From: Sinohyriopsis cumingii
Lineage: Eukaryota > Mollusca > Bivalvia > Unionida > Unionidae
Direction: 5' to 3'
Length of the DNA: 64,000 bases
Assembly (NCBI GenBank): GCA_028554795.2
Contig: CM068842.1
Span: 28,907,077-28,971,076 of the forward strand
Within the stretch, counting starts at the first letter, position 1, and the number at the start of each line of letters is the position of its first letter. Below are positions 10,296-30,372 of this stretch, piece after piece. A program made the translations under genes and the position numbers. A model generated the notes under the pieces. It was given only the letters and a program-made list of their open reading frames with translations, searched no databases and was not told the origin of the DNA.

Positions 10296-10311
10296 GGCCC
10301 TGAAAAGGGCC
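10296..10311 (-). terminator. Histone-like 3' stem-loop in left terminal repeat
   Basis: On the minus strand this reads GGCCCTTTTCAGGGCC: six paired bases, a UUUC loop, a CCAAA-type 5' flank and AGCCA after it. CTCGAAAAGAGA follows about 13 nt downstream. It lies 25 nt after the stop codon of the minus-strand gene 10570-10337, the same spacing as the plus-strand copies elsewhere in the element. Confidence 0.75.
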
Positions 10312-10336
10312 TTTGGGTTTTATGTTAATGTATTCA

Positions 10337-10570
10337 TTAACATAAATGGCACCGCATTGGTCTTCTTCTTGTCCTTAGGCTGCGTCTTACTGTTGGTCCG
10401 TACATCAGCACTCTTTTCAGGCATCCTTGTCTTTCGACGTAGATCCTACGTATCCACAGGCTGGTGTTTGTCCTGTGGACAACGGTCCACTTGGATCTTA
10501 CATACATGAGCAAGTCTGTCCGAAACATCATGGAAGACACAAGGGTGGATGACTCAACTGTAGTCCACAT
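10337..10570 (-). CDS. Small Arg-rich protein of unknown function
   Basis: I do not recognise this 77-residue basic protein, which is rich in Arg (especially residues 38-72), Val and Thr. Three things favour a real gene over a chance frame. A strong TATAAATAAG box lies on the minus strand at 10622-10613, about 45 nt before the ATG at 10570. The first ATG after it opens this frame. A histone-like stem-loop sits 25 nt after the stop. That makes it the left-end counterpart of the right-end module genes. A basic protein of this size might bind nucleic acid, but nothing proves it. Confidence 0.5.
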   Translation of the reverse strand: MWTTVESSTLVSSMMFRTDLLMYVRSKWTVVHRTNTSLWIRRIYVERQGCLKRVLMYGPTVRRSLRTRRRPMRCHLC

Positions 10571-10612
10571 CTTGAAGCGACGAGAACAGGTGAATCAATG
10601 CATTGAACGGCG

Positions 10613-10622
10613 CTTATTTATA
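10613..10622 (-). promoter_or_regulatory. TATA box for the minus-strand left-end gene
   Basis: TATAAATAAG on the minus strand, 43-52 nt upstream of the ATG at 10570. It fits a focused RNA polymerase II promoter. The segment 10623-10789 also holds the palindrome TGACGTCA (about 10720), which may serve the divergent gene at 10790. Confidence 0.65.
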
Positions 10623-10789
10623 GGCGGAGGAAGGATTGAAACGGATTGAGTTCATTTACCAATCCGAACACGCGTTACAGAATTCAGTCAGCTCGCATCC
10701 AATCCGAAGAGAGCAGTCTGTGACGTCACGTAGTCAATATAGATTCGCTAGCGCTTGTGTGCAGTCAGTCTATGCGACAGTGATTCAAC

Positions 10790-11365
10790 ATGACGGAAAC
10801 TCAGAAAACGATCCATTGGGGTGCACCAGCAGGGGAGACTGCCCAAGGGAACTCGGACTTACTTTCAGAAGAGGTGAATTGGGATTTTGTGGATTTTCTC
10901 TCCTCGCAAGAATTTGTTCCGGAACCTTCGTTACCTTCTTCATTACCGCAAGTGGAGAATTTTAGACAGAGACAGAAAGAAGAATTGGAGAAATTTATAC
11001 AACGACAAAAGGAAGCGGAACAGGCTTTTCTCCTACAGCAACAGCAACAAGAAGAAGAGGTAAGAAAAAAACAACAGCAACAACAGCAAGAAGAAGTAGC
11101 AGCAAAGAAACAAGAGGGTGAAAATCAAACGGTCACGGTACTGTTGGACATTTTAGCGGAGTTAAGAAGTCTGAAACAAATGTATCAGACTTCTTTATCA
11201 CGACCGAAGAGAATACGACCTTCCCGAGCTAAACACGTCAACCCTGTGACTAAGCCTACCGTACCACCCTTAGTGATTTCAACCCAATCATCATCAACAT
11301 TACGCAGTCCAGAAGTAGGCCTTGGTCGTGGCAAAGGCATAAGGCAGTTAAAGTTGATTGGTTAA
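10790..11365 (+). CDS. Gln/Glu-rich coiled-coil protein of the left end
   Basis: This 191-residue protein has an acidic, Trp-containing N-terminus (NWDFVDFLSS), a long charged coiled coil with polyQ tracts (about residues 55-115), a short helix (LLDILAELRSLKQMY) and a basic C-terminus (RPKRIRPSRAK). I do not recognise a domain. An acidic/aromatic N-terminus joined to an oligomerisation helix and a basic tail would suit a regulator, but this is speculation. It resembles the right-end module genes in composition and ends 28 nt before a histone-like stem-loop. TGACGTCA at about 10720 is the clearest upstream site. Confidence 0.6.
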   Translation: MTETQKTIHWGAPAGETAQGNSDLLSEEVNWDFVDFLSSQEFVPEPSLPSSLPQVENFRQRQKEELEKFIQRQKEAEQAFLLQQQQQEEEVRKKQQQQQQEEVAAKKQEGENQTVTVLLDILAELRSLKQMYQTSLSRPKRIRPSRAKHVNPVTKPTVPPLVISTQSSSTLRSPEVGLGRGKGIRQLKLIG

Positions 11366-11393
11366 ACTCACCCCTTCACCATGAAGAAAAAAA

Positions 11394-11409
11394 GGCCCTT
11401 TTCAGGGCC
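11394..11409 (+). terminator. Histone-like 3' stem-loop after the 10790 gene
   Basis: GGCCCTTTTCAGGGCC, preceded by A-rich sequence and followed by ACCCA, which is the animal histone consensus flank. CTCGAAAAGAAA follows 12 nt downstream, then AATTTGCCAA and a possible back-up AATAAA at 11460. It lies 28 nt after the stop codon. Confidence 0.85.
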
Positions 11410-11662
11410 ACCCACATTTCTCGAAAAGAAATACAATTTCAATTTGCCAATAACTCAAAAATAAACCCCCACCCATTTTACCCTTATAGTACGTGTCTGT
11501 GTATGAGTGCGTGAGTGTACGTTCTTATTTTAAAATCAAAACTCAAAGACACTTACCTTATATCATTCATTTATTCTTTTCTCCATTTTTTTACAATCCA
11601 ATTAACAATTCACAACATAACACTTTAATAAAAAGTTCATTGATTTCTTCTTTTCTCCTTTT
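11410..11662. other. Convergent 3' region between two genes
   Basis: No gene is visible. It holds the downstream box of the plus-strand stem-loop, AATAAA at 11460-11465 (plus) and AATAAA on the minus strand at 11575-11570, which serves the zinc-knuckle gene. The remainder is AT-rich. Confidence 0.7.
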
Positions 11663-12267: not shown

Positions 12268-15200
12268 ATGAAACGATCCCATTCATTCGAGAAGAAAAAA
12301 GAAGAAGAAAGTAAGAGGCAGAAACGTGATCTCTCGCCTCGTACCAGGGCTGAAATCTTGGCACAAATTCATGCCAGTGATTTTGAAGAGGACATGAGTG
12401 AACCAGAATCCGAACCCTCTAAACCAAGTTCATCACCCTTTGTCAACCCTGAAAAGTACTATTCCATTCAAGAGACGGAAAAGCGCTCCTCTAGAAAATT
12501 TAGAACCACGGCTTACAAATACACGGTGAAGTTTAAAGATTTCAAGGCTGAAGTGCCGTTAGAGAAAGCAGAAGTGTTCATCACCGAGGTGTGGGATTCT
12601 TTGCTCACTGCACTCAAGCGACAATGTCAACCCAAAGAAGACGATCGCTTGAGACTTTCCATACAACACGACGGTTTGAAATCCCCTGTTTGGATCGAGT
12701 TTAGCACCCCTGCAGAATTGACTGCTTCCAAAGTCATGGACAAGATTCAACACGTACAACAATCTAATGATCAGTTTGACATCACCGATGGTAAAGCCAC
12801 ACTGGACATGACCCACGTCTCTCCTCCTCAAGGGACAGGACGCAAAAAGATGTTATTGGTGGACGACCTTCGCAACACCAAAAAGAGTCTCGTCCGAATT
12901 AACAACCCTCATGACCAGATGTGTTTAGCCCGTGCCATCGTGGTGGGACGAACCTATGCCAACAAGAACGACACGGTAGAATGGAAAAGAACCTGGGACA
13001 CTATTCAACGTTCCGACCGAGCCAAACAACGAAACGAAGCAGAACTCCTGTTACAACAAGCTGGCCTGTCCAAAGACACACCCTGTGGTATTCCTGAGAT
13101 GCAAAAATTGCAAGATGCCCTAGCTCCACGATACACCTTGAAAGTGCACCCTCAAGAAGTGCGCGGACCTCTGTTGTTTCGAGGCCAAGATTTTAAGGAC
13201 GGAAAATACATTCACCTTTATCATCACGATGACCATTTCGATACCATTACCAGTATCACTGGATTCCTGAGATACTGTTATTATTGTGAGAAATGTGACC
13301 ATGGTTATAACAATCGAGAGCAACACAAGCATTGTGGATCGAAATGCTCAGGATGTTTGGCCTCTTCACCCTGTCTGAGCGAAGGACCAGTGCCTTGTTC
13401 AACTTGTCTGCGTACGTTTGTCAGCCCTACCTGTTACCAACAACATCTGAAAACGCAAGGTTCACAGAAGAAATGCGCTTGTCAACTCCTGAGATTGTGC
13501 CCTACGTGTGGACAAGGCATACGTACCAATAGTGCCAAGGCACACGTATGTTCAGGAAAAAAGAAATGTCACATTTGTCATCACATCGTGGACTTGAAAC
13601 ACGAATGTTACGTGCAAAAATACCAACCCCCACCAGAGAAAGAGGATGGTCACAAGAAGAAAGGCAATTTCATCTTTTTCGATTTCGAATGCATGCAAGA
13701 GACCGGCATTCACATTCCTAATTTCTGCGTGGCTCATCGAGCGTGCGAGAAGTGCATTCAAGAACCTATCTTCAGTCATTGCCCTCACTGCAGCAAGATT
13801 CCCGGAGGGCGTGAAAAAATCTTTCGGGGACCCAACACGTTAGCCGATTTTGCCCAATGGGTCTTAGACCCCGTCGACAAGACGTGGAGCCAAGAGGACA
13901 TCGAACGTTACGGAGATTGTCATCGTCATGCCACGGTGATGGCTCACAATTTCTCCGGATACGATGGACAGTTTCTTTTGAGGTACTATACGGAACAAGG
14001 CACCGAGCGTCCTAAAGTGACTTTGAACGGAGCCAAAATCATTTTCATGCAAGTGGGACAAGTACAGTTTAAAGATTCGATGAGCTATTTGGCCATGCCT
14101 TTGAGTCGAATGCCTAAAACGTTTGGAATGACAGAAATGGCTAAAGGGTACTTTCCACACTTTTTCAATACGGAAGCCAATCAACACGCCGTTCTACCCC
14201 ATTTACCAGAGGCTCACTATTACGACCCCGACAACATGCGTACCGAACAACGAGAAGCTTTCTACGCTTGGTACCAGGCTCACGCCTCAGACCCTTTCGA
14301 CTTTCAGGAAGAAATGCTAAAGTATTGTCGTTCCGACGTGGACATTTTACGGCGTTGCTGTGGAAAATTTCGAGAACTGTTCATGGAACACGGAGGGGTC
14401 GATCCTTTGAAAGAAGCTTGCACCATTGCCAAAGCGTGTTCCTTAGTGTATCGACAACGATTCATGCCTGAAAACACCGTGGCTGTCATCAGCCCTCAAA
14501 CGACCAACTTTGTCAAACGTCAATACTCGGTCAAAGCCTTACGCTGGTTACATTACTTGTGCGACAAGGAAGACAAGTGGATTCAGCATGCCCGCAACGG
14601 AGGGGGCGAAAAGACCATCGGAACGTATTCGGTCGATGGCTGGGACTTAGAAAACCCCAAGATCGTGTACGAGTTTAACGGTTGCTTATTTCACGGATGT
14701 CCCGTTTGTTACCCTGACCGTGGCACTAAAAATCAGTTTTTGCAACGAACCATGGAAGACTTGTACCAGGACACTTGTCAGCGACGCCTAAAGTTAGAAC
14801 AGCAAGGATACCAAGTGGTGGAAATGTGGGAACACGAGTACGATCACCGTTTGAAAACCGATCCCGAGTTTAAACGCCTCGTGGAAAGTTACCAGTTCAT
14901 GGACCCGCTGAACCCGAGGGATAGTTTGTACGGAGGAAGGACCAATGCCACCTGTTTGCTGTACCAAGCCGACGAAGAGAAAGGAGAAGAAATCAAATAC
15001 TTGGACGTGTGTTCGCTGTATCCCTACGTGTGCAAATATTGTCGCTTTCCTGTAGGGCACCCGCAATTGTTAACGGAACACATCGACCTGAAAAACATTC
15101 GACAATACGAAGGCTTGATCAAGTGTAAAGTTTTGCCTCCCACGAACCTATACCATCCCGTCTTACCTCACCATTGTCAAGGCAAATTGATGTTTCCCTT

Positions 15201-16308
15201 GTGCCGTACTTGTGCCGATACGTGCAACCAAGACCAACCTTGTCAGCACAGCCAGGAAGAACGTGCCTTGACGGGAACCTGGGTCAGCGTAGAATTGTTC
15301 AAAGCTATGGACATGGGATACCAACTGTTAGAAGTGTACGAAATTTGCCACTTTCCCAAGACACAACAATACCGCAAGGGTGACCCTACTCAGAAAGGCA
15401 TTTTCGCCGACTACGTGGATGCCTTTTTGAAACTGAAGCAAGAAGCCAGCGGCTATCCTTCCTGGTGTCACACTCCCGAAGACCAAATACAATTCAAAGA
15501 GAAATACTACGAACAAGAAGGCATCTCTTTAGACCACATCGAGAAAAACGAAGGCAGGAGATCGTTTGCCAAAGTGATGTTAAATTGCTTGTGGGGTAAA
15601 ATGGCACAACGACCGTGTTTACCCAAGACGGAATATTTGACAGAACCTTCCCGCTACTTCCAGATGATTCACGACAAAACCAAATGCATGAAACACGTGG
15701 ACGTCGTTCGAGAGAATTTGATCTTGGTCAATTACGAAGAAGATCTGGACTTTGTACAAGACGACCCTTTTGGAAATGTCATCATTGCGGCTTACGTGAC
15801 AGCCCATGCTCGCTTAAAATTGTACGAAGCTTTAGAACTGTTAGAAGAACGCGTCCTGTACTTTGACACGGACAGTTGCATTTACATCCATCACCCGATT
15901 CAACATCACCCTAACATCGAAGGAGACCGTTTAGGAGCCTGGACAGACCAGCATCCCGACGACAAGATTCTAAGTTTCGTCAGTGGCGGTCCCAAAAATT
16001 ACGGCTACGAATACCGTGACAAACAAGGAGAAGTGCACACGACGTGCAAAGTGAAAGGACTGACTCTGAATTATCGTACCAGTCGAGTGGTCAACTTTGG
16101 GGTATTGAAAGAAGCCTTGCAATCGGGAGAGGATGGAAACTTTAAAGTGACCACTCACCAACCGAACAAGATTGTACGTTTACCCACTCACCACATCGTC
16201 AGTCGGCCCTTGGAAAAAGTCTATCAAATCGTGTACCAGAAGCGAGTTCGACTTCCCAATCATTTCACCTTACCGTATGGACACGTTGGTATAAAACATT
16301 GGTTGTAA
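12268..16308 (+). CDS. polB: Family B DNA polymerase, protein-primed Polinton type
   Basis: At 1346 residues this polymerase replicates the linear element. The exonuclease motifs are present: Exo I with Asp472 and Glu474 (FFDFEC), Exo II with Asn561 and Asp566 (NFSGYD), Exo III with Tyr686 and Asp690 (YCRSD). So are the polymerase motifs: A with Asp913 (DVCSLYP), B with Lys1102 and Asn1106 (KVMLNCLWGK), C with Asp1200 and Asp1202 (FDTDS). All catalytic residues are kept. A long N-terminal extension holds the Polinton-type segment NNPHDQMCLARAIVV (about 210) and a Cys/His-rich zinc region (about 335-455). Terminal inverted repeats together with this family imply priming from a terminal protein. 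Confidence 0.95.
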   Translation: MKRSHSFEKKKEEESKRQKRDLSPRTRAEILAQIHASDFEEDMSEPESEPSKPSSSPFVNPEKYYSIQETEKRSSRKFRTTAYKYTVKFKDFKAEVPLEKAEVFITEVWDSLLTALKRQCQPKEDDRLRLSIQHDGLKSPVWIEFSTPAELTASKVMDKIQHVQQSNDQFDITDGKATLDMTHVSPPQGTGRKKMLLVDDLRNTKKSLVRINNPHDQMCLARAIVVGRTYANKNDTVEWKRTWDTIQRSDRAKQRNEAELLLQQAGLSKDTPCGIPEMQKLQDALAPRYTLKVHPQEVRGPLLFRGQDFKDGKYIHLYHHDDHFDTITSITGFLRYCYYCEKCDHGYNNREQHKHCGSKCSGCLASSPCLSEGPVPCSTCLRTFVSPTCYQQHLKTQGSQKKCACQLLRLCPTCGQGIRTNSAKAHVCSGKKKCHICHHIVDLKHECYVQKYQPPPEKEDGHKKKGNFIFFDFECMQETGIHIPNFCVAHRACEKCIQEPIFSHCPHCSKIPGGREKIFRGPNTLADFAQWVLDPVDKTWSQEDIERYGDCHRHATVMAHNFSGYDGQFLLRYYTEQGTERPKVTLNGAKIIFMQVGQVQFKDSMSYLAMPLSRMPKTFGMTEMAKGYFPHFFNTEANQHAVLPHLPEAHYYDPDNMRTEQREAFYAWYQAHASDPFDFQEEMLKYCRSDVDILRRCCGKFRELFMEHGGVDPLKEACTIAKACSLVYRQRFMPENTVAVISPQTTNFVKRQYSVKALRWLHYLCDKEDKWIQHARNGGGEKTIGTYSVDGWDLENPKIVYEFNGCLFHGCPVCYPDRGTKNQFLQRTMEDLYQDTCQRRLKLEQQGYQVVEMWEHEYDHRLKTDPEFKRLVESYQFMDPLNPRDSLYGGRTNATCLLYQADEEKGEEIKYLDVCSLYPYVCKYCRFPVGHPQLLTEHIDLKNIRQYEGLIKCKVLPPTNLYHPVLPHHCQGKLMFPLCRTCADTCNQDQPCQHSQEERALTGTWVSVELFKAMDMGYQLLEVYEICHFPKTQQYRKGDPTQKGIFADYVDAFLKLKQEASGYPSWCHTPEDQIQFKEKYYEQEGISLDHIEKNEGRRSFAKVMLNCLWGKMAQRPCLPKTEYLTEPSRYFQMIHDKTKCMKHVDVVRENLILVNYEEDLDFVQDDPFGNVIIAAYVTAHARLKLYEALELLEERVLYFDTDSCIYIHHPIQHHPNIEGDRLGAWTDQHPDDKILSFVSGGPKNYGYEYRDKQGEVHTTCKVKGLTLNYRTSRVVNFGVLKEALQSGEDGNFKVTTHQPNKIVRLPTHHIVSRPLEKVYQIVYQKRVRLPNHFTLPYGHVGIKHWL
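16290..16297 (+). promoter_or_regulatory. TATA box for the first BIR gene
   Basis: TATAAAAC lies inside the last codons of the polymerase gene, 43 nt before the ATG at 16333. Confidence 0.5.
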
Positions 16309-16332
16309 GAGGATAGTTACCCCACCAGAAAG

Positions 16333-16791
16333 ATGACTTCGCCACAGCAAGAATCGAGTGAGAAACCTGATGAGAACTCCAAGTTCAAACCCTACCATTT
16401 TCCAGTCTTCTTACCTGACTATTGTGATTGTGCCCGTCGATTGGACACGTTTCAGAAATGGTCTACGGATAGGGAAGGATTACCTTCTTCGCATGTTTTA
16501 GCTAGAACAGGATTTGTCTACTTGGGACCTGAGTCAGGATTGGGATACGAGGTACAGTGTTTCGCTTGCGGACTGAAGTTACGAATGGATCTATGTATCT
16601 ATAAAGATTCAGCTATTCTGGAGCATACTCGATGGTCTCCGAATTGCCCTTACCTTTCTATGGCCTTTCCACCCATCACACTACGGTACAATGTTGACGG
16701 TACCTTAGAGACGGTACCTTCCAGAACAGGACATAAAAAACGTAAAAAAGGAAAGATGTACAAGTTGGAGACTGCATTGAGACTAGTATAA
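16333..16791 (+). CDS. BIR-domain protein, short form
   Basis: This 152-residue protein contains one baculoviral IAP repeat (residues about 20-120). Visible features are RLDTFQKW, a short helix, ARTGFVYLG, the CFAC zinc pair, and EHTRWSPNC carrying the His and Cys ligands. The spacing between CFAC and the His is slightly longer than usual, and the segment has lost the usual acidic/aromatic residues, so ligand binding may differ. There is no RING or second BIR. Such proteins usually block caspases or other cell-death steps; the target here is unknown. The C-terminus is basic. It pairs with the BIR gene at 16851. Confidence 0.8.
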   Translation: MTSPQQESSEKPDENSKFKPYHFPVFLPDYCDCARRLDTFQKWSTDREGLPSSHVLARTGFVYLGPESGLGYEVQCFACGLKLRMDLCIYKDSAILEHTRWSPNCPYLSMAFPPITLRYNVDGTLETVPSRTGHKKRKKGKMYKLETALRLV

Positions 16792-16794
16792 AAA
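16787..16794 (+). promoter_or_regulatory. TATA box overlapping the upstream stop codon
   Basis: TATAAAAA contains the TAA stop (16789-16791) of the first BIR gene and lies 57 nt before the ATG at 16851. The same overlap recurs at 20148 and 21134. Confidence 0.7.
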
Positions 16795-16850
16795 GGGGGC
16801 TATGGTCAAGATCGATAGTTCATTGTGACTACCAAGACCGAGCGAACAAG

Positions 16851-17588
16851 ATGAATACTTTGAAAAAGACATCGTTTCAGTTTGGGGATTGTAAAAAAGT
16901 TGTATCTTCCTCTAGTGTGACTAATACTGGATGGATAAGACCCAGGCATTGCGACGGAAAATGTCCGGAAGGAAACTGCGATTGTCCATGTGGTTACCAT
17001 TGTAATTGCGTAACGGAGTTTGCAGACGAGTGCGATTGTGAGCCTTGCGATGGGACCGATGCTGTACGTTGTGACCTGAGCGATGCCGTAAAGCATCATG
17101 GGAACTTTGTTCTCACTGCCCCTGTCATGGAAAGTGATGCTGTGCGTGTCAAACCTGAGGGATGCGAAAGCGATGCCGCTCGTCCTCTTAGACATTTTAC
17201 CGGGTTTAAAGGGGAATGTTCACCTTCACGTCTACCCCCCTACGGATGTCATCCAGCCCTGAGCAAACTCCTGTTCCTGTCACCCAACCCTCATCGAAAC
17301 GAACCTGTGAAAAACGAATATTCGTTCCCTGTGCGTTTGTCGGAATACTGCGACTTTGAAAATCGTCTTCAATCGTTCAAAGGAAAATGGCCTAAGTATC
17401 TGGGAGGACCGACCCCCGAAGAATTAGCCAGAGCCGGATTTTTCTACTTGGGCGAAGGAGATAAAGTCAAGTGCTTCAGTTGTGGTGTGTCACTTCACCA
17501 CTGGGAACCGCAAGATTCGGCCTACGTAGAACATGCTCGATGGTCACCGAATTGTCATTACTTACCTTTAGTGGGACCGAGACATTGA
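16851..17588 (+). CDS. BIR-domain protein with Cys-rich N-terminus
   Basis: This 245-residue protein has a canonical BIR domain at about residues 155-242: RLQSFKGKWP, ARAGFFYLGEGDKVKCFSC, then HARWSPNC, with all four zinc ligands in place. The first 60 residues hold a separate Cys-rich cluster (CDGKCPEGNCDCPCGYHCNC) that may bind metal. The middle contains repeated SDAVR-type motifs, as if a short segment had been duplicated. It is expected to act in the infected cell against apoptosis, alongside the neighbouring BIR protein. No RING finger is present, so ubiquitin-ligase activity is not expected. A TATA box lies 57 nt upstream. Confidence 0.85.
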   Translation: MNTLKKTSFQFGDCKKVVSSSSVTNTGWIRPRHCDGKCPEGNCDCPCGYHCNCVTEFADECDCEPCDGTDAVRCDLSDAVKHHGNFVLTAPVMESDAVRVKPEGCESDAARPLRHFTGFKGECSPSRLPPYGCHPALSKLLFLSPNPHRNEPVKNEYSFPVRLSEYCDFENRLQSFKGKWPKYLGGPTPEELARAGFFYLGEGDKVKCFSCGVSLHHWEPQDSAYVEHARWSPNCHYLPLVGPRH

Positions 17589-17616
17589 AGTAACTTCTTA
17601 CCATAATAATCTGTTC

Positions 17617-18072
17617 ATGGATACTTTACAAGAGAACATTCGTGCTTTGCCTGTGGAGTTGAGAGAACGCATTTATCGAGAACTGGTCAAAATACAAGTG
17701 AAACGTAAAGAACAATTGCATCCGATACGTCACCGGTGTTTGAACCACTGGTACCTGAAGGCTATACAAGGACTGATTCAATTGAAAGTGTTCCATCGGA
17801 CAGACATTGATCAACGATCCTCTAGTTTTAAAAAGGATTGGTTTGGTATGGACGATTGTAGTTACATCATTGTAAACGTACTGCATCGAATTCCAGAGGA
17901 AGAGTTAACGAATTACCAACATCTTAAACACAATGTCAACTTGGTGAAAGAGGAAACTTCTGAACGAATTGTAATGTGTAGATTAGTGACTCAACGATTT
18001 AAATTCGACACTGAAGTGAAACCATGTTTGTGCAAAGAGTACATTTCTTGTGTCAGACCAAAGAGGATTTAG
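17617..18072 (+). CDS. Paralogue A of a tandem pair, F-box-like N-terminus
   Basis: This 151-residue protein is nearly identical to the next gene over its first 45 residues and diverges after that. The shared N-terminus contains LPVELRERIYRELVK, whose pattern is like the first helix of an F-box. If so it could recruit a ubiquitin ligase, but the resemblance is short and I give it little weight. The rest has no recognisable domain. It starts 28 nt after the BIR gene and ends 12 nt before its paralogue, so the pair arose by local duplication with strong constraint on the N-terminus. Confidence 0.6.
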   Translation: MDTLQENIRALPVELRERIYRELVKIQVKRKEQLHPIRHRCLNHWYLKAIQGLIQLKVFHRTDIDQRSSSFKKDWFGMDDCSYIIVNVLHRIPEEELTNYQHLKHNVNLVKEETSERIVMCRLVTQRFKFDTEVKPCLCKEYISCVRPKRI

Positions 18073-18084
18073 TATGACCTATTC

Positions 18085-19105: not shown

Positions 19106-19313
19106 AAGGTCATTCCGGGAGGACACTTGTGTGACAATACCTCATGTAGAGACTGTAAGAACATTACACACTGTCCCTAGGACATCTTGGTTACCCAAAA
19201 CATGTTGTACAGACACTTGTTTATATTCCACTTTGATCGCTTTGCTGTGTTTTATATTCCTGTACATCACTATTTGGGTTGTATGTATTTTTGTCTTTCG
19301 TGTTCATATTTGA
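18903..19313 (+). CDS. Overlapping frame ending in a C-terminal membrane helix
   Basis: This 136-residue open frame ends with a 25-residue hydrophobic helix (YSTLIALLCFIFLYITIWVV) and a short tail, typical of a tail-anchored membrane protein. The first 65 residues overlap the previous gene in another frame and may not be translated on their own. AATAAA lies 8 nt after the stop, which supports the stop as a true gene end. It may be the 3' part of the preceding gene, reached by a frameshift, or an independent small membrane protein. Confidence 0.45.
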   Translation: MTYTLIGQMFVTGKRGVLRLGPKKWPSMHKSCSRKKVTFQPVLVTVPEEPVTENNHSLQDRTVMDIPERSFREDTCVTIPHVETVRTLHTVPRTSWLPKTCCTDTCLYSTLIALLCFIFLYITIWVVCIFVFRVHI

Positions 19314-19320
19314 AACATTC

Positions 19321-21583: not shown

Positions 21584-21632
21584 AAAGGCCTTCGGAAGTC
21601 CCAAGATCTCAGAATTCACCCCTGACAACCCC

Positions 21633-22274: not shown

Positions 22275-22295
22275 GACACCAATCAACACAAAAAA

Positions 22296-23408: not shown

Positions 23409-23413
23409 CCATC

Positions 23414-23827
23414 ATGCCCTTTCACACATCAGACGCAGCTACGTCGACCAGTCCTTCTTCCCCTAGTTCTTCTGTGCAAGATTTACAAAAACAACCCTTG
23501 TGGGTGTGGTGTGGAGAACGTGTGCCTAAAACGCAAATCGTCTTTTTCTGCCAAATCTTCGTGGTGTATTGTGTCATCGGGGCAGCCATCGCCAATTTGA
23601 GTTTGCAACAAGGAGACAAACAATTGTGGACCATTTTATTGAGCAGTTGCATCGGTTACCTACTTCCCAATCCCTCCCTGAAATTCTCCTCGAACGGGAA
23701 CGTTGTGTCCAGTGCCAGTGTCAGTGCCAGTCACCACTCCAACCACAACCAGAACCCCATTTTGGGCGGAGACACGCCTCTGACATCCACTAACCCCTCG
23801 GACAGCCACAGAACTCTGGAATTATGA
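23414..23827 (+). CDS. Polinton membrane protein
   Basis: This 137-residue protein has two predicted membrane helices. The first is at residues about 35-57 (TQIVFFCQIFVVYCVIGAAI). The second is at about 70-87 and contains LSSCIGYLLPNP. This ILLSSCIGYLLPNPSLK-type ending of the second helix is a hallmark of a small membrane protein seen in many Polintons and adintoviruses. A Ser/Asn/His-rich tail follows. Its virion role is unknown. The frame is open 9 nt further left, but the first ATG is at 23414. The stop overlaps the next start as ATGA at 23824-23827. Confidence 0.65.
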   Translation: MPFHTSDAATSTSPSSPSSSVQDLQKQPLWVWCGERVPKTQIVFFCQIFVVYCVIGAAIANLSLQQGDKQLWTILLSSCIGYLLPNPSLKFSSNGNVVSSASVSASHHSNHNQNPILGGDTPLTSTNPSDSHRTLEL

Positions 23828-24762
23828 GTCACCAAAACCAATTTTACTTAACCTTACCCAGTGACAGTTCCATGGAGGTGTTTCCCAACAACAAGTTGTG
23901 CTGTTACACAGCCAAATTACCTCAGGCCATCCCCTTAGATCACGAAGCCCATTGGGAAGTGGCTTTGGTAGAAATAATTCACCCAACCCAAGTCTTCAAT
24001 GTCATTGACAATCAAAGTAAATTTACGGTGGAAGTTTATGACGAACAATTGCAAAAGTGGATGAATGAGAATAACAAATATCCCCATAAAACAAAAAACA
24101 AATTCAATCCAAATTGGATGGACTATGAGTTGTTCATTCCCTCGGACTATTATTTTAGTGGTCAACATTTGGTCAGCGCCATAGCCTCCAAGTTAAATGG
24201 TGTGTTTGGGGAAGCTTTTAAGACTTTCAAGTCCAAAGCTATCACCCTGGAATACCACAAAATAGCTCGTCGCTTCCTGATGAAATTTCCTGAGGAAAAA
24301 ATCATGGGTTTCTATTTTTGTGATGAATTGTTTGACATGTTGGGTGGTGACGTAAAGATGAGGAAGAAAGTAGAACATACACTAAAACAAAAAGCCGTCA
24401 TTTACAGCAACGAGTCTTTTGGCCAGTATTTTCGTGCCCCGGTAGAACTGAACCAAGGACTGAATTTGATCTTTGTGTATTCCGATGTGGTGGAATACAA
24501 CGTGGTGGGACACACCTCCGTGCCGTTACTGCGTGTCATTCCTTTCAAAGTGGACTCTGCCACGATCGCTGACGAGGAAGGTGGAAACACTTACCACGTT
24601 CACCGCGAATTTGTCCATCCTCACTATTTGCCCGTCAGCAAGTCGTATTTGGACACGGTCAACATTACTATAAAAGGAGATTTGGGACAAGATATTCCAT
24701 TCACCAAAGGAAAAGTCACGGTGAAACTCCATTTTCGAAAACGGTTCTCTCACGACTCGTAA
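23824..24762 (+). CDS. Penton-like minor capsid protein
   Basis: This 312-residue protein has the pattern of the Polinton single jelly-roll minor capsid family: an N-terminal strand set with FPNNKLCCYTAKLPQAI, HWEVALVEI, an FIPSDYYFSG loop and a C-terminal block ending in IPFTKGKVTVKLHFRKR. It should occupy the five-fold vertices. The fold is expected to match adenovirus penton base, though sequence similarity is low. Compared with the element-1 version at 8120-9424 it lacks a central charged insertion. It overlaps the previous gene by four bases and precedes the pVI-like gene by 11 nt. A TATAAAAG box for that next gene lies within its 3' part (24669-24676). Confidence 0.75.
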   Translation: MSHQNQFYLTLPSDSSMEVFPNNKLCCYTAKLPQAIPLDHEAHWEVALVEIIHPTQVFNVIDNQSKFTVEVYDEQLQKWMNENNKYPHKTKNKFNPNWMDYELFIPSDYYFSGQHLVSAIASKLNGVFGEAFKTFKSKAITLEYHKIARRFLMKFPEEKIMGFYFCDELFDMLGGDVKMRKKVEHTLKQKAVIYSNESFGQYFRAPVELNQGLNLIFVYSDVVEYNVVGHTSVPLLRVIPFKVDSATIADEEGGNTYHVHREFVHPHYLPVSKSYLDTVNITIKGDLGQDIPFTKGKVTVKLHFRKRFSHDS

Positions 24763-24773
24763 GTAAGTAAGTC

Positions 24774-25193
24774 ATGTATCCAGTGTACCGAGGGGTTGCT
24801 CGACAGCGAGGACACGGTTTAGGAGACATGTTAAAATCGGCCTTTCGTTCGGTGGCTCCAGTCTTGAAACCGATGGTGACACGAGGATTGCACGCCTTGA
24901 AAGATGCGGCACTGACACAAGGCAAAGAATTTCTCCAAAATGTCATCATCGACAAACAAAACCCTAAAGAAGCCTTCATGAGGGCAGGCAAAAATGTCTT
25001 GCTGCAAACGGGCAAAGACATTTTAGGCCGACGAGACACACCTATAAATGCCCTGCACGCTACCGAGTCAAGCATTCAGCAAGGACAAGGCAGAAAGAGA
25101 CGACGAAGAAGAAAACACCCTTTCACCAGACTTCAAGCGAGAAAGGCCAAAAAAAGAAGAACCGTTCGAGACTTAGACGTTTTCGATTATTGA
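24774..25193 (+). CDS. pVI-like minor capsid protein
   Basis: This 139-residue protein begins PVYRGVARQRGHGLGD, followed by an amphipathic helix (LKSAFRSVAPVLKPM), a helical middle and a very basic tail (RKRRRRRKH). The opening PVYR..G.GLG pattern is the mark of Polinton pVI-like proteins and recurs in the element-1 gene at 3138-3632. In adenovirus the equivalent is cut by the viral protease and can disturb membranes; the amphipathic helix here fits. It lies between the penton-like and capsid genes, as expected for a structural protein. Confidence 0.65.
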   Translation: MYPVYRGVARQRGHGLGDMLKSAFRSVAPVLKPMVTRGLHALKDAALTQGKEFLQNVIIDKQNPKEAFMRAGKNVLLQTGKDILGRRDTPINALHATESSIQQGQGRKRRRRRKHPFTRLQARKAKKRRTVRDLDVFDY

Positions 25194-25212
25194 GACACAG
25201 CAACAACAAAAA

Positions 25213-26532
25213 ATGATGCACCGAGAGTCTTGCGCCTGTTCCAACACGGAACTGGATCTGTTTACCATGCCCCCCACCATGATGACGATGCAAGAATCCC
25301 AATGGGTGGAATTTCATCCCGTCTCCTCATTGACAGCCTCAGCTCCCATCGAGTTTGAAATCAAAGGACAGCCCGAAGATTACATCGATCTGAATAGCAG
25401 TTACTTGTACTTGAAAGTCGAAGTTCTAGATCAGAATAATGATGGAGTAGATGCCGCTGAGATTATAGCTCCCGTCAACAATTTCATGCATTCCTTGTTC
25501 AGCTCAGTGGACTTGTACTTGAATAACAAACTGGTTAGCAGCAGCATGGATACTTACCCTTACCGTGCCTACCTGGAAAATCTCTTGACGTACGGACCAG
25601 ATGCCAAGACAAGTCATCTCAATGCCTGTGTGCTGTGGACAGATGACGAAGCGGGCAAGTTTAAGATAGCTGACGCAGAAGACAATGACGGCTTTGTGGC
25701 AAGACGAAACAGAATCACAGGCAAAAAGAGTTTAGAACTGATGGATCGTTTGCATTTGGACATGTGGTTGCAAGAGAAATATTTGCTGAACGGTGTCAAT
25801 GTGCGCCTGAGACTGAATCGCAGCAGTGCCGCTTTCCATTTGTTGGCTAATGCTGATGCTACTAAGACTGGCAATCCTAAAAGCACAATCCTACAAGCCA
25901 GACTCTACGTACGGCGCGTGGAAGTGTTACCTAAAGTGGGAAACGACATCAGTCAGACGTTGAGCAGAACGACCGCCAAGTATCCCATACGACGTGTGGA
26001 AGTGAAAACGTTCACCATTCCTACTGGACAGCAATCCATGATCGAAGATCATCTGTTTCAAGGACAGTTACCCAAACGTTTGATCCTTGGTATGGTCTCG
26101 AATGCAGCCTTCAACGGAGCCTTCACTGAAAATCCTTTCAACTTTGATCACTTTTTCGTGAAGAAAGTCGAAGTCAGTCGTGATGGCAAGACCTTGTATA
26201 CCCGACCTTTCGAACCTAGCTTTGATCCCACAAAGATGAATTACTTGAGATCGTACTTGTCCCTGTACGAAGCCACCGGTCAGTTAGGAACCAACACCAG
26301 TCACGGCATTGAGTATGAGGATTATGCAGGAGGCTATGCTTTGTGGGCGTTTGATTTCACTCCAGACCAAGGCAGCGACGAGGGACATTTCCACCCTATA
26401 AAATCTGGCCAGATTCGTGTGGAACTTCAGTTTGCAAAAGAACTGGACAAGACAGTGAACGTCATCCTGTATGCAGAATTCGACAATACGATAGAAATCA
26501 ACAGTTTGAGAGAAGTCATTCTAGATTATTAG
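25213..26532 (+). CDS. Major capsid protein (double jelly-roll, hexon-like)
   Basis: At 439 residues this is the main shell protein. Family signs include a Cys/Thr-rich start, QWVEFHPVSSLTASAPIEF, YIDLNSSYLYLKV, an NNFMHSLFSSVDLYLNNKLV segment and a C-terminal block with HPIKSGQIRVELQFA and YAEFDNTIEI. These are typical of the Polinton/adintovirus major capsid. Its sequence is very different from the capsid of element 1, so two capsid lineages lie in one window. The frame is intact. A TATAAAT motif at 25043 and TATAAAAT at 26397 may serve this and the next gene. Confidence 0.9.
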   Translation: MMHRESCACSNTELDLFTMPPTMMTMQESQWVEFHPVSSLTASAPIEFEIKGQPEDYIDLNSSYLYLKVEVLDQNNDGVDAAEIIAPVNNFMHSLFSSVDLYLNNKLVSSSMDTYPYRAYLENLLTYGPDAKTSHLNACVLWTDDEAGKFKIADAEDNDGFVARRNRITGKKSLELMDRLHLDMWLQEKYLLNGVNVRLRLNRSSAAFHLLANADATKTGNPKSTILQARLYVRRVEVLPKVGNDISQTLSRTTAKYPIRRVEVKTFTIPTGQQSMIEDHLFQGQLPKRLILGMVSNAAFNGAFTENPFNFDHFFVKKVEVSRDGKTLYTRPFEPSFDPTKMNYLRSYLSLYEATGQLGTNTSHGIEYEDYAGGYALWAFDFTPDQGSDEGHFHPIKSGQIRVELQFAKELDKTVNVILYAEFDNTIEINSLREVILDY

Positions 26533-26538
26533 AAAGCC

Positions 26539-27045
26539 ATGGAAGACTGTTATCCCTCTTTACCTAGTGGAGAAACTTTGGAGATGGAATGTGAGGAGAC
26601 CGTGGAAAAAGAAGAATCTCAAGACAAAGACGAAGAAGATATCATGATGAAGTCGAGATGGCCAGAACAAGAAGCCCATTTAGTCTGCTGTTTTGCCAAA
26701 CACTTGGTCGACAAAATGACGGAATTGATCAAGAAAAATTGCTGTGGATGTCAAAACGATCATCCCAGTCAAATTCAACACGATAAATGCCTGATGTTGA
26801 GTCAAGAAGAAAAATTAGACGAGTATCTGGACGAAGCTTGGAGCCTCATCTCGAACAAAGACGTGTTGCACCAGTGGTATAAAGACTTGCGTGAACATTC
26901 TTGTCCACCATTAACCACTCAAGAGATCCATCGTATCGAAGCTCTCCTGAATCAGAGTGAGGAAACAGAACGAATAACCGTTTATTCGTCAGACATTTTC
27001 AAGCAAAAAGTCAGGATCGAATTGACGACTTATTATTACCTGTGA
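26539..27045 (+). CDS. Conserved Polinton Cys-containing protein of unknown function
   Basis: This 168-residue protein has an acidic N-terminus (about 1-40) and a conserved centre reading CCGCQNDHPSQIQHDKCLM, then helices with DEYLDEAW and a basic end. The C.GC..DHPSQ..H..CLM pattern recurs near the capsid gene in other Polintons and may bind a metal ion. No function is established that I know. It starts 6 nt after the capsid stop, and the region has several TATA-like boxes. Confidence 0.6.
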   Translation: MEDCYPSLPSGETLEMECEETVEKEESQDKDEEDIMMKSRWPEQEAHLVCCFAKHLVDKMTELIKKNCCGCQNDHPSQIQHDKCLMLSQEEKLDEYLDEAWSLISNKDVLHQWYKDLREHSCPPLTTQEIHRIEALLNQSEETERITVYSSDIFKQKVRIELTTYYYL

Positions 27046-27067
27046 AGAAGAAAACAAACACAAAACA

Positions 27068-27628
27068 ATGGATACCTGGGAACTTTATTACCTTTTGAAC
27101 CACAGTTCGTATACGTCTTCTTGGAATCCTGTCGTCTGTGCTAAAGATGAACTCCCTCATCGCAAACCTAAAGACCATCAAGCTTACGTGATCAACACGG
27201 ACGAAAGTCATCTCCCAGGAACCCACTGGGTAGCCGTCTACTTTCCTCAAGAAGGATGTGTGGAATATTTCGATTCGTACGGATTGCCGCCTTTGGAAGA
27301 CGATATCATTGACTTTATGAGAAGAAATGCTCAAACCACCCGATTCAATAATGTGAAATTACAAGGCACAGATTCCTTGGTGTGTGGACAGTACTGTGTG
27401 TATTTTCTGCATCATCGCAGCCTGGGCTATTCCTTAGAACATTTAGTGACTCATTTCGATCCTCGTTCTTCTGCTAGAAACGATGTGAAAGTAGATCGAT
27501 GGTTTTGTGACCATTATGCTTATCTTTTGTCTCAAGCTAGGAAACGTAGTGTCCATCAATGGCCTAATGATTTCCAACAGTGGAAATCACAATTTCATTC
27601 ACAACGTTGTCAGCCCTGTTCAAAGTAG
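27068..27628 (+). CDS. Adenain-type cysteine protease
   Basis: This 186-residue maturation protease has the full catalytic set of peptidase family C5: His53 (GTHWVAV), Asp69 (YFDSYG), Gln99 (KLQG) and Cys106 (CGQYCVYFL). It matches the element-1 enzyme over these motifs but differs elsewhere and is longer at the C-terminus, with an Arg/Lys/Gln-rich tail. Likely substrates are the pVI-like and basic core proteins, which have GG-containing sites. It is the last core gene; AATAAA follows at 27741-27746. Confidence 0.9.
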   Translation: MDTWELYYLLNHSSYTSSWNPVVCAKDELPHRKPKDHQAYVINTDESHLPGTHWVAVYFPQEGCVEYFDSYGLPPLEDDIIDFMRRNAQTTRFNNVKLQGTDSLVCGQYCVYFLHHRSLGYSLEHLVTHFDPRSSARNDVKVDRWFCDHYAYLLSQARKRSVHQWPNDFQQWKSQFHSQRCQPCSK

Positions 27629-27863: not shown

Positions 27864-27892
27864 GGGGATGTTTTCCTTCACGTCCGCGCTTT
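27864..27892 (+). promoter_or_regulatory. Module promoter block, copy 1
   Basis: The core GTTTTCCTTCACGTCCGCGC is preceded by GGGGAT and followed by TTAACTTTAAG at a TATA-like position. It lies 63 nt before the ATG at 27955. Other copies are at 28723, 29459 and 29528. Confidence 0.75.
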
Positions 27893-27954: not shown

Positions 27955-28314
27955 ATGTGCTCCAAACTAGCTAAGCTCAACGAAGCCTACGTGAATCTGC
28001 ATAGGGTCAGACACAGTCTGATACCGAAGCCAGAAGAAATAGAGAATGTGAGAATGTTAAAAATCACTGAAGACCTGATAGAAGAGCTCTTCCGAGAAGA
28101 AATGAACAGGGAAAAAGAAGAATGGACAGAGAAGTACAGACTTCAGAGACAGCAGCAACAGCAGCAACAACAGCAACAACAGCAGCAACCTGAAGCTGAC
28201 AGAGGCTTTGTCGATTGCCGTATCGACACCAAAGAGTTCTTCTTCTCTTTCCGAAGAAGCAGACCTATCGCCAGAAAGTCTATCCTCAGAGGACATCGCA
28301 TTCTTAGAAACTAA
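27955..28314 (+). CDS. Right-end module protein 1, polyQ coiled coil
   Basis: This 119-residue protein starts at the first ATG (27955); the frame is open further left without one. An N-terminal amphipathic helix (KLAKLNEAYVNLHRVRHSLI) is followed by an acidic/basic coiled coil, a polyQ tract encoded by mixed CAG/CAA, and a structured basic C-terminus (FFFSFRRSRPIARKS). No known domain is visible. The N-terminal helix resembles those of the next two modules (KLEKLLELHVHLEYARRIL-like), so the three genes are probably paralogues. A histone-like stem-loop begins 28 nt after the stop, and a shared promoter block lies upstream. A degraded copy lies outside the element at 38207-38560. Confidence 0.65.
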   Translation: MCSKLAKLNEAYVNLHRVRHSLIPKPEEIENVRMLKITEDLIEELFREEMNREKEEWTEKYRLQRQQQQQQQQQQQQQPEADRGFVDCRIDTKEFFFSFRRSRPIARKSILRGHRILRN

Positions 28315-28342: not shown

Positions 28343-28358
28343 AGCCCTTTTCAGGGCT
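28343..28358 (+). terminator. Histone-like 3' stem-loop, module 1
   Basis: AGCCCTTTTCAGGGCT with AAAAAC before and ACCCT after. CTCTAGAAAAGAA follows 10-20 nt downstream, then ATTTGCCAAT and a possible back-up AATAAA at 28426-28431. It lies 28 nt after the stop. Confidence 0.85.
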
Positions 28359-28722
28359 ACCCTAATACTCTAGAAAAGAAGTAACGATAGATTTGCCAAT
28401 GTGAGTGTAGGTAGAGTAGTGTGAAAATAAACACTAACTCTTTTCTTAAAAAATGTGAGGGTATGTGATGGTGTGTTAGTAAAAGATAAAGTAAGTTGGT
28501 ATGGATAGTAGATTAAAATGATGTTTTTTTGGTGTTTGAGGTGTATATTTGGAGTTAGATTGAATTGATTTGCGTATATGGATAGTGCATTGAAGTGATT
28601 TATAAAAAAATTTTAAAATAGTGATGGGTAGCATAAAAAGTGAGTGAGTGTTTCTTTTTAGGTCCGCGCATTGTTGTTGTTTTTTGGTCATGATCTAGGT
28701 AAGATGAATTTTATGTTATTAG
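28359..28722. other. Inter-module spacer
   Basis: No gene is visible. It holds the downstream box of the module-1 stem-loop and an AT-rich stretch related to the spacer 29222-29458, sharing GCCAATGTG, GTAGGTAGAGTAGTGTGAA and AACACTAACTC. It also shares GGTCATGATCTAGGTAAGAT with the region before 29528. The modules therefore arose by tandem duplication. Confidence 0.7.
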
Positions 28723-28762
28723 GGGGATGTTTTCCTTCACGTCCGCGCTTTCAGTATAAATT
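28723..28762 (+). promoter_or_regulatory. Module promoter block, copy 2, with TATA box
   Basis: The repeated GTTTTCCTTCACGTCCGCGC block is followed by TATAAATT at 28755-28762. It lies about 52 nt before the ATG at 28814. Confidence 0.8.
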
Positions 28763-28813: not shown

Positions 28814-29176
28814 ATGAACACGAGACTTGAGAAACTGTTGGAGCTTCATGTGCATCTGGAATATGCCAGGCGCATATTAAATGAACTGGCCGCGGAAGCC
28901 ATTGTCGAGGAGGGAAGGATAAGAGAGGAGGAAAGAAGAAACAAAGAAGAGGAGGAGAGAAGATATAAAGAAGAAGAAAGAAGATATAAAGAGGAAAGAA
29001 GAAACAAAGAAGAGGAGGAGGAGGAAAAGGAGAGAAGAAATTTCAAAATCCCAGAGAGCGAAAATTGGGATTCTGAAGCAACATATCCTGCCTCTGCTCT
29101 CTCCCCCCAAAAGGTAAAAAGTAACTGGGGGATAAGATGTGTATGTGGCGCCAGGCCTGGAAGGTGCCACCATTAA
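28814..29176 (+). CDS. Right-end module protein 2, charged coiled coil
   Basis: This 120-residue protein has an N-terminal amphipathic helix (RLEKLLELHVHLEYARRIL), a long repetitive Glu/Arg/Lys-rich helix with EERRYKEEERR repeats (about 40-80), and a C-terminal end with a CVCGARPGRCHH cluster that could bind metal. It has no known domain. It uses the same promoter block and stem-loop as the neighbouring modules. The start is the first ATG, 52 nt after the TATA box. An oligomeric scaffold or nucleic-acid binding role is possible, not shown. Confidence 0.6.
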   Translation: MNTRLEKLLELHVHLEYARRILNELAAEAIVEEGRIREEERRNKEEEERRYKEEERRYKEERRNKEEEEEEKERRNFKIPESENWDSEATYPASALSPQKVKSNWGIRCVCGARPGRCHH

Positions 29177-29205
29177 CCAGGTGTCCATGAAGTTCCAGAC
29201 AAAAC

Positions 29206-29221
29206 AGCCCTTTTCAGGGCT
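29206..29221 (+). terminator. Histone-like 3' stem-loop, module 2
   Basis: AGCCCTTTTCAGGGCT, preceded by CAAAAC and followed by ACCCA, which is the exact histone consensus flank. CTCTAGAAAAGAAAT follows, then ATTTGCCAAT. It lies 29 nt after the stop. Confidence 0.88.
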
Positions 29222-29458
29222 ACCCAATACTCTAGAAAAGAAATAACCATCAATTTGCCAATGTGTGTAGGTAGAGTAGTGTGAATATAAACACTAACTC
29301 TTTATTAATAGTGGAAGTGTATGTGATTGTGTGTTTGTGTTTGTGTTAGTAACTAATGAAGTAAGTTTGTGTGAATAGTAGATTATGGGTTTCTTTATTG
29401 TTTCTTAGCGTATGTGGAGAGTATAGTTTGGGTTTGATTATATGAAATGAGAAAGTAG
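29222..29458. other. Inter-module spacer
   Basis: No gene is visible. It is a diverged copy of the spacer at 28359-28722, with GT-rich stretches. Confidence 0.65.
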
Positions 29459-29484
29459 GGGGATGTTTTCCTTCACGTCCGCGC
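29459..29484 (+). promoter_or_regulatory. Module promoter block, copy 3, without a gene
   Basis: A complete GTTTTCCTTCACGTCCGCGC block that is not followed by a TATA box or gene. The sequence leads instead into GGTCATCATCTAGGTAAGAT and the next block. It is probably left over from tandem duplication. Confidence 0.7.
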
Positions 29485-29527
29485 GATGTTTGGTCATCAT
29501 CTAGGTAAGATCCATTTTATGTTTTAG

Positions 29528-29565
29528 GGGGATGTTTTCCTTCACGTTCGCGCTTTTCGTATAAG
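29528..29565 (+). promoter_or_regulatory. Module promoter block, copy 4, with TATA-like box
   Basis: The block has one change (CACGTTCGCGC) and is followed by GTATAAGAAC, about 55 nt before the ATG at 29615. Confidence 0.75.
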
Positions 29566-29614
29566 AACCCACAGTATTCGTTGTTCAAACCATTCTGCAA
29601 AGAATACAAAGAAG

Positions 29615-29995
29615 ATGGCGTCAAACCAAATGGACAAATTGCAAACCTTGCAAGACGTTTTAGACAACTTAGGAATAATGGAACAGATGCTATTAAGACT
29701 GGTTGAAGACCATTATTCCTATAGTCCCCATCGTGTGAAGATGGAAATTAATAACTTAAGGAAAGCAAAGGACAAGATTAGTGGTGTCATGAAAGAGATC
29801 AAGGAGGAGAAGGAGGATGAAGAGGAAAGAATAAGAATACGCAATTGGAACGAAAAAATTGAAAAAGAAGAAGAAAATGAAAAGAAGAAGAAAGAAGAGG
29901 AGGAAGAGAAGAAAGAAGAGGAGAAGAAAAAAAAGAAAGAGAAGAAGAGTGTAGGAGATAAAATAAGAACTTGGTGGAGGAAAAGAAGAAATTAG
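29615..29995 (+). CDS. Right-end module protein 3, Lys/Glu-rich coiled coil
   Basis: This 126-residue protein has an N-terminal helical domain (MDKLQTLQDVLDNLGIMEQM, about residues 6-55), a very long Lys/Glu-rich helix (about 60-110) and a basic tail ending RTWWRKRRN. The tail could contact DNA or membranes. No family is recognised. It is the third paralogous module and lies directly against the right terminal repeat. The stop is 13 nt before the stem-loop, which is inside the repeat, so the terminal repeat supplies this gene's 3' signal. Confidence 0.6.
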   Translation: MASNQMDKLQTLQDVLDNLGIMEQMLLRLVEDHYSYSPHRVKMEINNLRKAKDKISGVMKEIKEEKEDEEERIRIRNWNEKIEKEEENEKKKKEEEEEKKEEEKKKKKEKKSVGDKIRTWWRKRRN

Positions 29996-29998
29996 AAG

Positions 29999-30372
29999 AA
30001 AACCCAAAGGCCCTTTTCAGGGCCAGCCATATTTCTCGAAAAGAGATAGCCTTTCCATTGCCTACCCCTTTTTTTAATTTTTTTTTAAATTTTTAAAAAA
30101 AATCCCATGTTAAATTCCCCTTGTCCGTAAAGTGACCCACGATTTATTGCCATGTTCAATTCCCCTTGTCCGTAAAGTGACCCACGATTTATTGCCATGT
30201 TCAATTCCCTTGTCCGTAAAGTGACCCACGATTTATTGCCATGTTCAATTTCCCTTGTCCGTAAAGTGACCCACGATTTTTCTCCATGTTAAATTTCCCT
30301 TGTCCGTAAAGTGACCCAGGGGTGTTTTTAATGCTAATTCCCATTGTCCGTAAAGCGCCCCCATTCACTACT
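29999..30372 (-). repeat. Right terminal inverted repeat
   Basis: Complement of 9949-10321, with five 44-45-bp subterminal repeats (about 30104-30320) and the terminal CCATTCACTACT. Its inner end carries the stem-loop used by the adjacent gene. Confidence 0.95.
30009..30024 (+). terminator. Histone-like 3' stem-loop, module 3, inside the right terminal repeat
   Basis: GGCCCTTTTCAGGGCC with CCCAAA before it and AGCCA after. CTCGAAAAGAGAT follows. It lies 13 nt after the stop of the gene ending at 29995. Because terminal repeats are inverted copies, the left end carries the same signal on the other strand. Confidence 0.85.

Follow-up and report, generated by a model that had tools for sequence, protein, structure and literature searches.

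A Polinton of 20.4 kb occupies positions 9949-30372 of a 64,000-nucleotide (nt) stretch of the genome of the bivalve Sinohyriopsis cumingii (assembly GCA_028554795.2, contig CM068842.1, positions 28,907,077 to 28,971,076 of the forward strand); this whole stretch is referred to below as the window. The identity of the element, proposed in a first-pass annotation made from the letters alone, was confirmed by its terminal inverted repeats (TIRs), a 6-bp target-site duplication (TSD), a PolB, an rve integrase and an A32-type ATPase. Five genes near its two ends, named G1 to G5, are each followed by a stem-loop and a purine box as in the histone genes of the host and by a TTGYC box that most of these histone genes also have, and it is likely, judging from these signals, that the five genes are regulated like host replication-dependent histone genes. 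The end genes and their 3' signals are as follows.

10337..10570, minus strand: end gene G2, 77 amino acids (aa), no Pfam match
10296..10311, minus strand: stem-loop of G2, RF00032 35.6 bits
10276..10285, minus strand: purine box CTCGAAAAGA of G2
10258..10263, minus strand: TTGYC box of G2
10790..11365, plus strand: end gene G1, 191 aa, no Pfam match, 20 homologous database proteins
11394..11409, plus strand: stem-loop of G1, RF00032 41.2 bits
11420..11429, plus strand: purine box CTCGAAAAGA of G1
11442..11448, plus strand: TTGYC box of G1
27955..28314, plus strand: end gene G3, 119 aa, no Pfam match
28343..28358, plus strand: stem-loop of G3, outer pair A-U, 28.5 bits, under the gathering score
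28370..28379, plus strand: purine box CTAGAAAAGA of G3
28391..28397, plus strand: TTGYC box of G3
28814..29176, plus strand: end gene G4, 120 aa, no Pfam match above cut-off
29206..29221, plus strand: stem-loop of G4, outer pair A-U, 31.0 bits, under the gathering score
29232..29241, plus strand: purine box CTAGAAAAGA of G4
29253..29259, plus strand: TTGYC box of G4
29615..29995, plus strand: end gene G5, 126 aa, no Pfam match above cut-off
30009..30024, plus strand: stem-loop of G5, RF00032 35.6 bits
30035..30044, plus strand: purine box CTCGAAAAGA of G5
30057..30062, plus strand: TTGYC box of G5

A six-base stem with a UUUC-type loop, an ACCCA flank and a purine-rich downstream element make up the 3' processing signal of animal histone mRNAs, which is bound by SLBP and the U7 small nuclear ribonucleoprotein (snRNP). 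All five 16-nt stem-loops of the first-pass annotation were recovered at their coordinates and on their strands, each with a 6-bp stem and a TTTC loop, and the particulars claimed for them agreed with measurement. The stop codon, said to lie 13-30 nt before the stem, was found at 25 nt (the minus-strand site at 10296), 28, 28, 29 and 13 nt; the ACCCA-like 3' flank reads AGCCA at both sites inside the TIRs and, among the other three, ACCCA twice and ACCCT once; and the GAAAAGA box, placed 10-20 nt downstream, follows after a spacer of 13 nt at four sites and 14 nt at one. The products were likewise described correctly as non-histone, the G1-G5 proteins having no Pfam match above cut-off. The homologues of G1 (n=20, 59-97% identity) are located on short contigs.

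Covariance search with the Rfam model RF00032, proposed earlier as a check, bore out three sites (41.2, 35.6 and 35.6 bits) and left two (31.0 and 28.5 bits) below the gathering score of 34, and RNA folding recovered the six-pair stem at 5/5 sites. Chance palindromes were ruled out: the stem core (≤2 mismatches) has an expectation of 0.24 matches in the window, five were reached in 0/100 shuffles, and the assembly counts given below and a stem screen agree. This screen covered the window and 20 kb upstream for all stems of six perfect pairs around a TT[TC][ACT] loop and gave six matches, namely the five sites, each followed by GAAAAG, and one A/T-only hairpin without a box. A hairpin belonging to the TIRs only was ruled out as well, three of the five sites lying outside them. 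A second hairpin over the purine box is possible in G1 (11415-11435), G5 (30030-30052) and G2 (10268-10290, minus strand); in G3 it forms imperfectly, and the best fold of G4 lacks it.

For comparison, the host histone genes were located by Pfam search (662 candidates, of which 150 were scored, with 150 matches), and five stretches were fetched. The genes stand in tandem arrays with a repeat of ~8.3 kb, and many short contigs (e.g. C531, C561, C310, C801) are tandem histone arrays of this repeat length. In the five stretches, H3, H4, H2B, H2A and H1 (H4 and H2A being named from the protein start) carry a stem-loop 27-38 nt past the stop codon, which reads GGCCCTTTT[TCA]AGGGCC in the core histones and GGTCCTTTTCAGGACC in H1, and the two stretches scanned with RF00032 (L065, L067) scored 35.0-39.4 bits. 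GAAAAG follows 13-14 nt past the stem, as in the element. The host purine box is CTAGAAAAGA in H3, H4, H2B and H1 and CCCGAAAAGG in H2A; the element uses CTAGAAAAGA or CTCGAAAAGA after the host's 13-14 nt spacing. The claim that the arrangement is the histone 3' processing signal is thus upheld by host histone genes with the same kind of stem, spacing and purine box. TTGYC occurs in host H4 and H2A at +36 and in H1 at +34, H3 has TGCC at +36 and H2B has no match; we know of no description of this box as part of histone 3' ends. The likeness of the element tails to the host continues beyond the stem, reaching 29/45 bases with H2B (shuffled maximum 24) and 30/45 with H2A (shuffled maximum 21). 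In bivalve histone mRNAs, the stem-loop has been reported, with purine-rich elements in some (PMC6210712).

The right-end genes G3, G4 and G5 also have a 22-nt promoter box, ATGTTTTCNNTCACGTYCGCGC, starting at 27868 (G3), 28727 (G4) and both 29463 and 29532 (G5), with a chance expectation in the window of 0.01 at ≤3 mismatches. The promoter features are:

27868..27889, plus strand: promoter box of G3, common to host H2B and H1
28660..28669, plus strand: AGGTCCGCGC upstream of G4, as in the host H4 promoter (TTTTAGGTCCGCGC)
28727..28748, plus strand: promoter box of G4, common to host H2B and H1
29463..29484, plus strand: upstream promoter box of G5
29532..29553, plus strand: promoter box of G5, beside a TATA-like site at 29560

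The box was also found upstream of host H2B and H1 in 5/5 fetched histone stretches. Promoters were compared by local alignment of the 250-nt upstream regions and expressed as z scores, which were 10.6-15.1 for G3-G5 against host H2B and H1 and 5.5 for G4 against H4. Seven core genes (CCHC, PolB, first BIR, ATPase, integrase, capsid, protease) did not exceed 2.3 against H2B and H1, and the highest control value was 3.7, for the ATPase against H2A. Across the 20 sampled stretches described below, 25 exact occurrences of the promoter box were counted, which were present in 11/13 stretches with right-end sites and in 0/7 with left-end sites only. Its sharing with host H2B and H1 supports a histone-like expression of G3-G5. 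The core of the box, CGTCCGCG, resembles the HINFP site of H4 promoters, a candidate reading for which a literature search gave no support. An E2F reading of the box was dropped, as the letters misfit the E2F consensus, and nine-letter words common to host H3 and the G1/G2 promoter were rejected at local alignment z scores of 1.1 and -1.3.

Genome-wide counts were made in the host assembly (2.9 Gb, 1,138 contigs). The 14-nt stem-loop core was found 56,759 times, including host H2B genes, whose core is identical, compared with 3 for the reversed pattern; the core followed by CT[AC]GAAAAGA at 11-12 nt was found 48,497 times, compared with 0. At five cores per element, we infer, as an order of magnitude, ~11,000 element equivalents, many copies being partial.

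Conservation was assessed in 20 stretches of one contig, drawn from the first 100 core places listed, together with the window, comprising 54 exact cores. Selection of the sites by the exact 14-nt core biases the measure of stem conservation in this sample; the purine box count is unbiased. Six-pair stems were present in 53/54 sites and GAAAAGA after 13 or 14 nt in 52/54. Absence of the motif from close relatives had been named as a refuting result; copies of the same family keep the signal, and a decayed relative on a mussel contig, discussed below, lacks it. One further, non-exact site (in L025) has the loop base of host H2A, with stem and box intact. The outer pair was G-C in 29 sites, A-U in 24 and A-C in one. 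The TTGYC box was found in 53/54 element sites, compared with 2/54 after shuffling, with the form TTGCC in 51 sites at positions +32 to +35. A stop codon lay 13-38 nt before the stem in 50 of the 51 sites with any ATG frame upstream and at 63 nt in the other, 3/54 sites being without an upstream frame; frames of at least 70 aa ended before the stem in 43/54 sites, compared with 11% of 2,000 random positions.

Substitution rates were calculated from alignments per gene class (n=8, 7, 10, 12 and 15 sites for G1-G5; two sites unclassed). The purine box showed 0.000 substitutions per site in G1, G2 and G3, 0.017 in G4 and 0.104 in G5, compared with 0.13-0.23 in the flanking positions +21..+30; the spacer at +6..+10 ranged from 0.000 (G3) to 0.286 (G1). 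In frames of at least 55 aa (n=7, 7, 10, 9 and 13 for G1-G5), third codon positions changed at 1.7-2.8 times the rate of first and second positions, which marks the end genes as coding sequences under constraint.

The remaining features of the element are listed here.

9943..9948: left target-site duplication AACGAC
9949..10338: left terminal inverted repeat, containing the G2 3' end signal (arms 9949-10255, 99%, and 10219-10338, 93%)
12268..27628, plus strand: core genes without stem-loop (PolB, two BIR proteins, A32-type ATPase, integrase, capsid protein, protease, unknowns)
29982..30372: right terminal inverted repeat, containing the G5 3' end signal
30373..30378: right target-site duplication AACGAC

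Each TIR is ~390 nt long, and both contain a ~45-bp minisatellite (9960-10216 and 30105-30361). Pfam matches were obtained for PolB (protein-primed-type family), the A32-type ATPase and the rve integrase with chromodomain. The protease had a weak but significant match to the African swine fever virus protease (E 2.6e-4), that to the adenovirus proteinase being weaker. The capsid protein had no Pfam match of its own, PF21738 being carried by a 43% homologue, and its profile comparison with the other double jelly-roll protein of the window gave 60%. It has 1,160 homologues; among the 120 listed, those named by organism came from the bivalves Mercenaria, Ostrea, Crassostrea and Saccostrea (44-53% identity) and from one bacterial metagenome-assembled genome (MAG).

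The two BIR (inhibitor-of-apoptosis) proteins lie at 16333-16791 and 16851-17588, and one is also present in the older fragment L071. A CCHC zinc-knuckle gene (11663-12181, minus strand) faces G1 and has no stem-loop; an AATAAA stands past its stop at 11570 (minus strand). The earlier statement that core genes use AATAAA is imprecise: between PolB and the 3' flank of the last core gene there are only two plus-strand copies (19321, 27741), and the end genes G1 and G3 have an AATAAA as well. TATAAA or TATAAG words at 16290, 16787, 20148, 21134 and 23391, near core-gene ends and upstream of the next gene, are possibly a core-gene promoter signal. A 209-nt direct repeat (17606-17814 and 18074-18282, 87% alike) spans the starts of two neighbouring unknown genes.

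The Polinton adjoins parts of a long interspersed nuclear element (LINE) on both sides (9638-9942 and 30379-36709), in which the second open reading frame (ORF2) encodes endonuclease, reverse transcriptase and RNase H domains; from its position, the Polinton apparently interrupted LINE ORF1. A different element nearby (L070:5562-9968 and window 345-9424) has an rve integrase and a superfamily 1 (SF1)-type helicase (in L070) and, in its window part, an HNH protein and the double jelly-roll protein mentioned above (3604-5034); the stem screen gave no histone-type site within this element. The family of the Polinton is also represented upstream of the window by an older fragment (L071, L070:1-2226; integrase 96%, protease 96%), which gave no end-gene matches. 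A copy of G3 at ~38207-38557 (88%), in which the likeness stops shortly past the stop codon and before any stem-loop, is possibly the continuation of this fragment, one copy having been split by later insertions.

Beyond the host genome, one distant relative with flanking DNA was found, a decayed copy whose capsid is 41% identical and whose mussel contig is filed under a MAG of a Bathymodiolus symbiont. Past its capsid gene a sub-cut-off match to the twister-P1 ribozyme was noted (L073:11734-11798, 28.9 bits, cut-off 67.2, E 0.014). No relatives were retrieved from IMG/VR by integrase, by one capsid homologue or by capsid alignment. Viral contigs with GGYYCTTTTCAGRRCCAC amounted to three loci in the whole collection (L009, L010, L011), none of which matched RF00032 at E up to 0.1; L011 appears phage-like by eye from its reading frames, and L009 is of no clear type. 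The stem-plus-box pattern had 0 matches in IMG/VR and 0 among the collected genomes of bacteria and archaea; as neither set includes animal genomes, these zeros say little about other bivalves.

Given the host-like stem, spacing, boxes and promoter box and the near-constant purine box, these non-histone genes most likely use host histone regulation. SLBP would bind the stem, and the U7 snRNP would pair with the purine box. U7 snRNP cleavage of histone pre-mRNA is placed 4-5 nt past the stem (PMC7026596). In the end genes, the pre-mRNA would be cut ~5 nt past the stem, giving an mRNA without a poly(A) tail. In three genes the promoter box would recruit host histone transcription factors. The combination of a histone-type promoter with SLBP/U7 processing is the reason for proposing that the end-gene messages build up in S phase, a time of plentiful nucleotides and replication factors. 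As the signal is part of the inverted repeats, a single TIR sequence provides the 3' end of both G2 and G5, the outermost genes. The core genes, without stem-loop, presumably use ordinary poly(A) sites, and the AATAAA past the stems of G1 and G3 could serve if U7 processing fails. The element thus probably makes poly(A)-less end-gene mRNAs while host DNA replicates; it is from the 3' signals and promoters that we infer the poly(A)-minus ends and the S-phase timing. Taken as a whole, we lean somewhat towards the fuller proposal that the element has become part of the host histone regulon through signals before and after its genes (the promoter box in front, and behind them the SLBP stem-loop, a U7 box of the host's own type and TTGYC), in some ten thousand copies yielding poly(A)-minus S-phase messages.

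Several observations weigh against histone-like regulation of the five genes. The upstream regions of G1 and G2 have no promoter-box match in local alignment, two of the five stem-loops fall under the RF00032 gathering score, and AATAAA also occurs past the stems of G1 (51 nt, 11460) and G3 (68 nt, 28426). The sampled copies come from a single contig and were selected by exact core. Among them, one stem has five pairs, the purine box is lost at 2/54 sites (in L015 and L030), and the G3 spacer at +6..+10 is as constant as its box (0.000). The host U7 search with RF00066, in which 65/801,960 candidates were scored, gave three sub-cut-off matches, which were not accepted, and the host SLBP search with PF15247 gave no match among the 14 candidates scored, in which no control matched either; a host SLBP is implied by the stem-loops of the host histone genes. 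Lastly, no stem-loop lies within 21 kb on the mussel contig, where the copy is decayed. Because this sole outside relative with flanking DNA lacks it, the histone-type signal may be restricted to one lineage.

The absence of the promoter box from G1 and G2, which do carry the 3' signal, would also fit a use of SLBP/U7 processing mainly because the genes are intronless, so that unspliced messages lacking poly(A) are exported and translated wherever a cell has SLBP, with S-phase timing a side effect or absent; the AATAAA past the G1 and G3 stems could then yield poly(A) ends outside S phase. We consider this rather unlikely, as 3/5 genes also have the host histone promoter box and the core genes, whose frames are likewise uninterrupted, have no stem-loop. 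The extension of the tail likeness past the stem (H2B 29/45, H2A 30/45) fits descent from host sequence, and the signals might on that account be functionless passengers on captured pieces of host histone genes. However, the signal is found on five different genes, the outer pairs are altered on both sides, the box is kept by 48,497/56,759 cores, and it stays near-constant while neighbouring bases change, most clearly in G1, G2 and G4, so that mere capture appears very improbable.

Mimivirus transcript hairpins act as terminators, and a hairpin serving the DNA of the element or a virus-type terminator, histone-like by convergence, would be consistent with the position of 2/5 copies inside the TIRs and with the possible second hairpin over the purine box in G1, G2 and G5. 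Hardly any weight is given to this explanation: three copies lie outside the TIRs, all five stand past a stop codon in the sense direction, the stem, spacing, purine box and TTGYC box agree with those of the host histone genes, and of the remaining two genes G3 forms the second hairpin imperfectly and G4, in its best fold, not at all.

To our knowledge, SLBP/U7-type 3' ends are known solely from histone genes. No report of histone-type 3' ends or of a host histone promoter box in Polintons was found among the titles and abstract openings of the open-licence literature, and a term search of two preprints on animal DNA viruses returned two passages about histone-like proteins from one and nothing from the other. 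Polintons and the histone 3' signal are each known; their union is, as far as we have seen, new. If the proposed regulation is correct, it would be the first viral use of the SLBP/U7 pathway known to us and would reveal a way for a Polinton to tie the timing of its accessory genes to replication in the host. The element would then represent a far larger set of genes with histone-type mRNAs than the histone genes themselves, its messages would possibly arise within histone locus bodies, and U7 and SLBP may become objects of competition between the element and the histone genes. Thousands of natural variants (constant purine box, loop variants, extra TTGYC box) would become available for U7/SLBP recognition, and poly(A)-selected RNA-seq would miss the end-gene transcripts.

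Among known systems, the hairpins of mimivirus and virophage transcripts are alike in their position just past stop codons; they are sequence-variable and lead to poly(A), whereas the element has a near-fixed histone-like stem-loop followed by a purine box. The HINFP-type site of H4 genes is similar to the core of the 22-nt box described here, with HINFP as a candidate factor. With animal replication-dependent histone mRNAs, the element shares the six-pair stem and UUUC loop just past the stop codon, the ACCCA-like flank and the purine box 13-14 nt on, three of the five sites exceed the Rfam cut-off, and the letters match the histone genes of its own host; unlike them, its genes are non-histone and lie in a virus-like mobile element. 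With Polintons, Mavericks and adintoviruses, it shares the TIRs, 6-bp TSD, PolB, rve integrase with chromodomain, A32-type ATPase, capsid protein and adenovirus-type protease, and it is set apart from them by five end genes with histone-type 3' ends, three of which also have the host histone promoter box.

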